Source: Nitrospirota bacterium
GTDB taxonomy: Bacteria; Nitrospirota; Nitrospiria; Nitrospirales; Nitrospiraceae
Assembly: GCA_016219645.1 (NCBI GenBank)
Contig: JACRLR010000019.1
Location: 62,001 to 126,000, forward strand
DNA: 64,000 bases
Direction of reading: 5' to 3'
Each line of letters starts with the position of its first letter. The stretch's first letter is position 1. The notes beneath the pieces were generated by a model that saw only the letters and a list, made by a program, of their open reading frames with translations, was not told where the DNA came from and did not search any database. The position numbers and the translations under genes are program-made. Shown here piece after piece: positions 62,560-64,000 of this stretch.

Positions 62560-63804
62560 GTGAACCAGACTCAAGAAACTGTTGTATTGACCGGCCACAT
62601 CATCGATTCGTTGATCCTGGCGAAGGTGCTGGACACAATTCTAATGCTGGGCGGCACGTTTGACCTCGAGGATATGCGGATCGGCAAGACCCGTGAGGAA
62701 CCGTCGCGTGTCAGAATCGTCGTGCAGGCCTCGTCGGCGAAGCTGCTTAGTGAGATTCTCCATGCCATTCAACCGCATGGCGCATCGGTCGAAAGTGAAC
62801 GGGATTGCCGGCTGAGTCCGGCGCCGGCGGACGGCATCTTTCCCGACGAGTTCTACGCGACCACTCATTTGCCTACTCAGGTGCGAGTCTGTGATCAGTG
62901 GGTCGAGGTGGCGGAGATCGAGATGGATCTGGGAATTCTTGTGGATCCGGTTCAACTCACGGCGAAGACTGTTCCGATGGGAGAGGTAAAACGGGGAGAT
63001 CAGATCGTCATTGGCCGTGAAGGCGTGCGAGTCATCCCTCTCCAACGGCCGCGTGACCGTGATGTGTTCGGTTTCATGGAGTCTCAAGTCTCGTCCGAGC
63101 GTCCCCATGGGCGTGTTATCAGCGACATTGCCAAACGCCTGATGCAATGTCGAACAGGATTCCGGGAGGGGAAGACAGGCAGCAAGGTGCTATTGGCGGG
63201 AGGCCCGGCGATTGTCCACGCAGGAGGCCGCGAGGCGCTGGCGTGGCTCATCGGCGAGGAGTTTATCCATGTCCTGTTCTGCGGGAACGCGCTGCCGGCT
63301 CATGATATGGAAGTTGATTTCTACGGCACGTCCCTCGGTTATGGGCAGGCGGCTGGTCGCGTCGTACCGCATGGGCATGAGCACCATCTGCGAACGATTA
63401 ATCGGATCAGAGCCATCGGCAGCATTGAGGCAGCGGTCAGGTCAGGAGTCGTTAAGACCGGAATTATGGCGGCCTGTGTGCGGCGGGGCGTCCTCGTTGT
63501 GATGGCCGGTACGATCCGTGATGACGGCCCCTTGCCCGGCGTGATAACTGATTCGGTAGAGGCCCAGGCAGCCATGCGTGCGGCAATCCCCGGTGTCGGA
63601 TTGGCCCTGCTCGTCGCCTCGACGCTGCATGCGGTGGCGACGGGCAATTTGTTGCCTGCCACGATTCCATCCGTCTGCGTCGATGTGAATCCGGCCGTCC
63701 CGACAAAACTCGCGGATCGGGGAAGTTTTCAGGCAGTCGGGCTGGTAATGGACGCTGCTTCGTTTCTGAGCGAGCTGGCGCGTGAGCTGGGGGCTCGACT
63801 GTGA
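62560..63804 (+). CDS. LOR/SDH (TIGR00300) family protein, ornithine cyclodeaminase-like
   Basis: 414 residues, matching the TIGR00300 / LOR-SDH bifunctional-enzyme conserved domain. The N-terminal part is VLTGHIIDSLILAKVLDTIL and DEFYATTHLPTQVRV; the C-terminal NAD-binding part holds LLAGGPAIVHAGGREALAWL, VLFCGNALPAHDMEVDFYGT and HHLRTINRIRAIGSIEAAV. In cyanobacterial AgrE/ArgZ this domain converts ornithine to proline. The GTG start follows AGGGAG by six bases. The next gene is an amidinohydrolase-type protein, so the pair would equal a split AgrE. Confidence 0.9.
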   Translation: MNQTQETVVLTGHIIDSLILAKVLDTILMLGGTFDLEDMRIGKTREEPSRVRIVVQASSAKLLSEILHAIQPHGASVESERDCRLSPAPADGIFPDEFYATTHLPTQVRVCDQWVEVAEIEMDLGILVDPVQLTAKTVPMGEVKRGDQIVIGREGVRVIPLQRPRDRDVFGFMESQVSSERPHGRVISDIAKRLMQCRTGFREGKTGSKVLLAGGPAIVHAGGREALAWLIGEEFIHVLFCGNALPAHDMEVDFYGTSLGYGQAAGRVVPHGHEHHLRTINRIRAIGSIEAAVRSGVVKTGIMAACVRRGVLVVMAGTIRDDGPLPGVITDSVEAQAAMRAAIPGVGLALLVASTLHAVATGNLLPATIPSVCVDVNPAVPTKLADRGSFQAVGLVMDAASFLSELARELGARL

Positions 63805-63916
63805 TTGTCGATCTCGTTGTTGCGGTTCATTTGGTGTGTTTAGTTGATTTGGTTAGTCCGGTTCAAGCACACACACGAAACAAACCAATGCAACCATCCA
63901 ATGTTCTGGAGAGGTC

Positions 63917-64000
63917 ATGAGTCGTCTATTGGTCTGCCCACCTGACTACTTCGGGATCGAATACGAGATCAATCCCTGGATGCGCCGGGTGAACGCCGTC
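63917..64000 (+). CDS. Amidinohydrolase/arginine deiminase-like protein, N-terminus (cut by window edge)
   Basis: Only 28 codons are in the window: MSRLLVCPPDYFGIEYEINP and WMRRVNAV. This opening (CPPDYFxIxYxINPWM) is characteristic of the amidinotransferase/dimethylarginine dimethylaminohydrolase-like enzymes that act on arginine. GGAGAGG precedes the ATG at two bases. Its place directly after the TIGR00300 gene suggests arginine dihydrolase activity. Confidence 0.75.
   Translation, partial: MSRLLVCPPDYFGIEYEINPWMRRVNAV

Follow-up and report, generated by a model that had tools for sequence, protein, structure and literature searches.

A TIGR00300-type ornithine cyclodeaminase gene and an arginine dihydrolase-like gene form a probable arginine-breakdown operon in Nitrospira

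The gene pair and its junction

The window, i.e. the whole stretch of 64,000 nucleotides that was analysed (G000:C19:62001-126000), is placed in Nitrospira because its near kin include, by record title, Nitrospira sp. CG24E, N. moscoviensis and Ca. N. defluvii. It closes with the gene of a TIGR00300 protein and the start of a second gene, here labelled GME after its guanidine-modifying domain. The following features were found (positions are those of the window):

62560 to 63804, + strand: gene of the TIGR00300 protein (LOR/SDH-type ornithine cyclodeaminase), 414 amino acids, GTG start; from the open reading frame, profile and domain matches and a structure model
63805 to 63916, + strand: spacer of 112 bases, consisting of a dispersed, imperfectly palindromic, hairpin-forming repeat and then GGAGAGG ahead of the ATG; from a genome repeat search and the fold
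63917 to 64000, + strand: first 84 bases of GME, the gene of a 266-residue arginine dihydrolase-like (pentein) protein; from the contig sequence and profile matches

The GME gene begins with an ATG at 63917 and its stop side lies beyond the window at window coordinate 64717 (L027:7918-8718). An earlier note had described a complete TIGR00300 protein at the window end with an amidinohydrolase-type gene starting 112 bases downstream, and had proposed to complete the latter from the neighbouring sequence. All of this held: the frame of 414 amino acids scores above the TIGR00300 cut-off, the gap runs from 63805 to 63916, and the second gene is present whole on the same contig with 266 amino acids.

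We compared the region with the other genomes of the order, a set of 31 genomes which includes the window genome and of which several are incomplete. A TIGR00300 match was obtained in 18 genomes and a GME-type match in 21, the latter count including a fragment (G002) and a weak match of 36% (G029). GME lies directly downstream of the TIGR00300 gene on the same strand in 18 of the 18 genomes with TIGR00300. The pairing is therefore not due to chance, and a fortuitous pair of open reading frames is ruled out by this conservation across relatives. Calling the longest frames overlooks the TIGR00300 gene at one locus (L068) and GME at another (L083); both are recovered by genome searches. In G010 (L087) both genes are absent precisely between their usual neighbours, truD and a zinc-ribbon gene, and G019 retains GME with no TIGR00300 in the genome.

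Two further loci deviate from the usual arrangement. The GME gene of G005 (L084:2854-3828) lacks the stretch around N69 and has an altered C-terminal end without C260; either gene decay or a misassembly would account for this. In another Nitrospira (L100:9918-10004) TIGR00300 is shrunk to a frame of 28 codons, as judged by eye, with the ATGA overlap to an intact GME kept; a genome-wide search gave no other TIGR00300 match there, and the reduction may be genuine or stem from the assembly.

The junction differs between the relatives. The genes overlap in 8 of the 18 genomes (G004, G005, G006, G007, G011, G022, G025 and G028), in several of them at GGGTGGAAGCCATGAG or near it. The spacer of the window has 33 other matches in its own genome at E ≤ 0.001 and folds with -35.7 kcal/mol (z -2.99); it was not listed by a search for inverted repeats with arms of at least 12 nt, so that the hairpin is a statement of the fold. 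Judged by eye in the junctions of L010-L026, a hairpin-like stretch of TTTGGTT-type units is present in the junctions of the window genome, G013, G018 and G008, a distinct hairpin-like insert (GTGAAA.../TTTCAC...) in that of G012, and a third one, GCAGGATGCT...AGCATCCTG, in those of G001 and G017. Since three different-looking repeats occupy one junction, repeats apparently entered more than once, and such entry into the TIGR00300-GME junction seems to have recurred in Nitrospira. A search of 2801 bases around the junction gave no Rfam element up to E 0.1, and one promoter-like and one terminator-like match represent no excess over shuffled sequences. Outside the window, 3' of GME, there is an inverted repeat with 21-nt arms (GCAGGATGCT...) at window coordinates 64825-64951 (L027:8826-8952); arms resembling it flank the inserts in the G001 and G017 junctions.

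Family assignment and fold of the two proteins

In the NCBIfam search the TIGR00300 gene product reached 445 bits against a cut-off of 410.8 (E 2.4e-133), covering positions 5-404 of the 407 of the profile, and by this curated score it is a full-length member of the ornithine cyclodeaminase family. The Pfam domains PF04455 (residues 6-103), PF21571 (105-187) and PF21570 (189-406) follow one another along the chain. The predicted model (mean pLDDT 84.9) superimposes on 3c2q_B with Z 40.0 and an rmsd of 2.0 Å at 44% identity over 327 residues, and the identity to AgrE (6lrf/6lrg) is 38% across the structural alignment. A profile built from 22 relatives matched AgrE, ArgZ, 3c2q and MJ1480 only among the solved structures. 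The structural comparison additionally assigned the catalytic domain (residues 164-413) to the deoxyhypusine synthase fold (7cmc_D, Z 18.3, 3.6 Å, 223 residues). From its family the window protein would make proline from ornithine.

The closest solved relatives of GME are ArgZ (6jv0, E 6e-73) and AgrE (6lrf, E 8.8e-71), both aligned over residues 3-264. The pentein (guanidine-modifying) fold was confirmed on a model of the N. moscoviensis GME, which is 76% identical to the window GME (mean pLDDT 96.3); this model superimposes on ArgZ 6jv1 with Z 43.5 and an rmsd of 1.0 Å over 264 residues at 44% identity, the next fold family being DDAH with Z 31.5. Six residues of GME, N19, N69, E116, D120, H164 and C260, align with those of ArgZ; we take these positions to be the catalytic ones. 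Two of them had already been mutated by the ArgZ crystallographers, as follows from the titles of 6juz (N71S) and 6jv1 (C264S). All six residues are kept in 110 of 110 GME family rows, comprising the window protein, 42 from Nitrospirota and near kin, 38 other split, 3 Gastranaerophilales and 26 fused rows, of which two pairs are identical (L157 and L204, L223 and L224) and from which the damaged G005 gene was left out. At position 69, four DDAH-like rows of less than 30% identity carry Asp instead. Thus the dihydrolase residues for which the earlier note had asked are in place, and with H164 and C260 present the second gene does not turn out to be what that note had named as its refutation, an amidinotransferase lacking the catalytic Cys/His set. 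An unrelated amidinotransferase is ruled out by the GME residues together with the fold ranking (Z at most 26.2 against 43.5 for the N. moscoviensis relative).

The curated models are less decisive for GME. It scores 274.3 bits with the arginine dihydrolase model NF052232, below the cut-off of 450, and 231.5 bits with the Mtb-type dimethylargininase model NF045659, below the cut-off of 300, whereas the fused protein L205 reaches 540 bits with NF052232.

Gene order across bacteria and origin of the fusion

For a wider view a GME alignment scan was evaluated for the best 80 of 583 confirmed loci, a survey biased to near kin. In 55 of these 80 loci a TIGR00300 gene is directly upstream of GME on the same strand, and the phyla of the 55 include by record title Nitrospirota, Planctomycetes, Chloroflexi, Armatimonadetes and Deltaproteobacteria. 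Two of the 80, both from Gastranaerophilales, have only the N-terminal domain of TIGR00300 upstream of GME, and 23 have no TIGR00300 in the stretch examined, some of these stretches ending near GME. When 22 of the 23 (all except L122) were searched genome-wide, 18 had TIGR00300 elsewhere and four had none; in many Planctomycetes among the best 80 of 583 the two genes lie apart. Within the same 80 loci there was neither a fused GME-TIGR00300 gene nor a TIGR00300 gene downstream of GME. An overlap of exactly four bases was found in 29 of the 55 pairs, the spacing being approximate in 9 of the other 26, where the aligned start is no start codon.

Fused genes were collected from 79 genomes of the phylum to which a Gastranaerophilales genome belongs, a sample which by our reading is Cyanobacteriota. 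A GME match was found in 29 of the 79, fused in 26. The remaining three are the split form of G047 from Gastranaerophilales, L231 of G111, which is closer to dimethylargininase, and a weak match in G108. A GME tree was built from 86 thinned rows, and its 14 fused rows form one clade (SH-aLRT 100) with Gastranaerophilales as sister (96); the outgroup of this tree is a very long branch, several deep branches are weak, and two of its Gastranaerophilales rows are labelled 'adjacent' on the N-terminal domain alone. A TIGR00300 tree of 79 thinned rows likewise unites the fused rows in a single clade (SH-aLRT 100). Its labels 'adjacent' and 'apart/other' follow the fetching search and not the gene layout, therefore only the result for the fused rows was used; this tree does not order the split and the fused form. 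In two Gastranaerophilales loci (L157:9785-9982 and L165:9747-9959) a small free gene with the PF04455 region only precedes GME; the open frames have 99 and 102 codons, and no match to the remainder of TIGR00300 was found in genome-wide searches of the Gastranaerophilales genomes.

The earlier note had stated that the two parts of AgrE/ArgZ are here separate genes in reversed order. They are indeed separate reading frames with the cyclodeaminase first, but its label 'split form', as if a fused AgrE had come apart, has to be given up as the survey points the opposite way. Going by the distribution, separate genes with the cyclodeaminase first seem to be the more widespread arrangement, the fusion being peculiar to cyanobacteria. 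This arrangement has the look of an ancestral state and not of a broken one, the window pair is probably not a broken-up AgrE, and we read the fused genes as the outcome of a single fusion with reversed order in Cyanobacteria.

That the separate genes arose when an AgrE-like fusion split in a Nitrospira ancestor is very unlikely. The characterised enzymes of this kind are fused, and when the TIGR00300 tree is rooted on archaeal 3c2q the fused clade stands beside all others, so that this tree alone would permit a split. However, the fusion is GME-first and was seen in the Cyanobacteriota sample only, with none elsewhere in the best 80 of 583 loci, whereas the TIGR00300-first order spans the five phyla named above. 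Moreover, Gastranaerophilales, which the GME tree places next to the fused clade, have their free PF04455 gene before GME, thus also in the TIGR00300-first order, and archaeal 3c2q is a chain without a GME part. A different objection concerns the reaction itself: GME could be a dimethylargininase or an arginine deiminase yielding citrulline, with the ornithine enzyme as its neighbour by chance or for regulation. The Mtb-type dimethylargininase is the third-best NCBIfam model for GME behind two arginine dihydrolase models, and L231, for which the Mtb-type model gives the best score (208 against 179 bits), nevertheless possesses N19 and N69; these residues are therefore not specific to the dihydrolase. 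Since sequence alone does not settle the choice between dihydrolase and dimethylargininase, most of the argument is carried by the ornithine-using family of the partner gene. GME is directly linked to a gene of this family in 55 of the best 80 of 583 loci and across five phyla, both parts are fused in 26 genomes, and GME scores 43 bits better as an arginine dihydrolase than as an Mtb-type dimethylargininase. We consider a citrulline-forming GME improbable and take the protein as a putative arginine dihydrolase with ornithine as product.

Proposed pathway, cofactor and known systems

It is likely that the pair is an arginine-breakdown operon representing the wider, cyclodeaminase-first form, whose parts cyanobacteria fused once in the opposite order. 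In the proposed scheme both genes would be co-transcribed as one operon. GME would hydrolyse arginine to ornithine, two ammonia and CO2 through a covalent intermediate at Cys260, the amidino adduct formed from arginine and C260 being resolved in two hydrolytic steps. An amidino adduct and two hydrolytic steps also characterise the reaction of ArgZ/AgrE. The TIGR00300 protein, by analogy with its family, would then oxidise, cyclise and re-reduce ornithine: an imine would form, the third ammonia would be lost at ring closure, and reduction would give proline, presumably by passing a hydride internally on a cofactor of nicotinamide type. The two proteins may form a physical complex. In the window genome the junction, which is overlapping in many relatives, would be held apart by the hairpin-forming repeat. 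For AgrE one CO2 and three NH4+ have been described, ornithine being the intermediate and proline the product (Flores 2021, PMC8262935). The chemistry which the earlier note had thought likely, from arginine over ornithine to proline plus ammonia, is thus supported at the level of the sequences, the activities being those expected from the families.

A proA match is present in 31 of the 31 genomes of the order, in 29 of them over the cut-off, so that these genomes probably have the route from glutamate to proline as well. With proline thus probably also made from glutamate, the pair is more likely catabolic or recycling; a role of the TIGR00300 protein as a requirement for proline synthesis is disfavoured by proA and a role in breakdown is favoured.

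The cofactor of the TIGR00300 step is a separate matter. In NCBIfam release 20 the family is named 'ornithine cyclodeaminase, nickel-pincer nucleotide-dependent', whereas PDB entry 6lrg is by title a ternary AgrE complex with ornithine and NAD+. In the open-access papers searched we found none on the nickel-pincer nucleotide with an ornithine cyclodeaminase; PMC11796402 and PMC12611868 mention neither ornithine nor cyclodeaminase. The genes larB, larC and larE are all over cut-off in the window genome, where larB and larC sit on another contig (C18), and within the order all 18 genomes with TIGR00300 have larB and larE over cut-off beside larC. When the order, the Cyanobacteriota sample and control genomes were pooled, larC was present in 46 of 46 genomes with TIGR00300 and in 38 of 78 without it, G047 (N-terminal domain only, no larC) being counted among the latter. 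The separate counts are 18/18 against 10/13 in the order (Fisher p 0.064), 26/26 against 24/53 in the Cyanobacteriota sample (p 2.5e-7) and 2/2 against 4/12 in the controls (p 0.16), statistics which ignore relatedness and genome incompleteness and of which only the Cyanobacteriota comparison is significant alone. The classical client LarA (PF09861) was found in two of the 31 genomes of the order, one being the window genome; in most genomes the cofactor genes therefore serve something else.

The lar genes are also found near the pair. Both larB and larC lie downstream of GME in 20 of the best 80 of 583 loci, all from Nitrospira/Nitrospirota and one of them L100, and in 8 of 20 stretches of a second set, which partly draws on identical contigs; what is seen here is a single gene order passed on by descent and does not represent independent events. 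In many Nitrospira only a few genes lie between GME and larB-larC. The sole locus beyond this group in the best 80 of 583 is L154 (Planctomycetia), with larC 7 kb downstream. In several Nitrospira, the window genome included (L077:7993-9782 on C18), gpsA and larB share a few bases, larC being mostly one small gene further. Eight genomes of the order (G003, G010, G015, G021, G024, G027, G029 and G030) have larB, larC and larE over cut-off without LarA or TIGR00300 and may contain an unrecognised user of the nickel-pincer nucleotide.

In 114 TIGR00300 rows, which include 3c2q and some repeated loci, K383 and the histidines H220, H248, H273, H276 and H357 show a conservation of 98% or more. Going by the C-terminal ends of the alignment (413 to 357), and barring a larger gap, K383 would lie within two residues of K329 of deoxyhypusine synthase, of which a K329A variant has been solved (title of 8a0f). 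No LarA-like fold was among the best 50 structure matches of the TIGR00300 model, which does not argue against such a fold. Both NAD+ and the nickel-pincer nucleotide fit a hidden hydride transfer.

Nickel-pincer nucleotide as the TIGR00300 cofactor has about even odds in our estimation, and the rival to it, a protein running on tightly bound NAD+ alone and without nickel, comes only slightly short of an even chance. NAD+ is favoured by the 6lrg title and by the match to deoxyhypusine synthase, several entries of which hold NAD by title; furthermore, larC is not specific to TIGR00300, the 10 genomes of the order which keep larC without TIGR00300 implying that other clients must exist. Against NAD+ alone stand the name of the family, the pooled larC counts and G019, in which none of larB, larC and larE is over cut-off and TIGR00300 is likewise absent. 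Tentatively, and at less than even odds, we put forward a fuller reading in which nitrite-oxidising Nitrospira would convert arginine to proline and three ammonia by a translation-coupled system of two proteins with a nickel enzyme as the second, the pair being ancestral and AgrE/ArgZ a one-time permuted fusion. The nickel-pincer nucleotide would then be held in the deoxyhypusine synthase-like fold, perhaps on the invariant Lys383, with metal ligands among H220, H248, H273, H276 and H357.

If the interpretation is right, the enzyme with which cyanobacteria recycle nitrogen goes back to a wider and modular origin, and nitrifiers possess a route freeing ammonia from arginine. The separate proteins would allow each half-reaction and the cofactor (NAD+ or nickel-pincer nucleotide) to be studied unfused.

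A comparison with known systems shows both likeness and difference. Deoxyhypusine synthase shares the fold of the TIGR00300 protein over residues 164-413, but the identity is only 10% and no sequence-level match was found among the solved structures with the profile of the 22 relatives up to E 10. The archaeal MMP_1218-type ornithine cyclodeaminase (3c2q, Methanococcus maripaludis S2) is also of TIGR00300 type; it is a chain of 345 amino acids without a GME part, whereas the Nitrospira gene is paired with GME. MMP_1218 is reported to turn ornithine into proline (PMC10809761). The Mtb-type dimethylargininase is likewise guanidine-modifying and N19/N69 are shared by L231, but the neighbour of the window GME belongs to an ornithine-using and not to a citrulline-using family. 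Our search of the open-access literature on AgrE/ArgZ, Nitrospira arginine dihydrolase and ornithine cyclodeaminase gave no description of the two-gene TIGR00300-GME layout. Both domains of the bifunctional arginine dihydrolase/ornithine cyclodeaminases AgrE (Alr4995, Anabaena) and ArgZ (Sll1336, Synechocystis) are present in the window pair, whose GME part is 44% identical to ArgZ and has the six compared catalytic-site residues. AgrE/ArgZ is, however, one chain with GME first, whereas the window has two genes with the cyclodeaminase first and a gap of 112 bases, and its proteins score 352 and 273 bits with the model of the bifunctional family NF052231, below the cut-off of 1025. To sum up, the pair is real, well conserved and most likely functional in the way the earlier note supposed, and it represents a layout variant of a known enzyme system.
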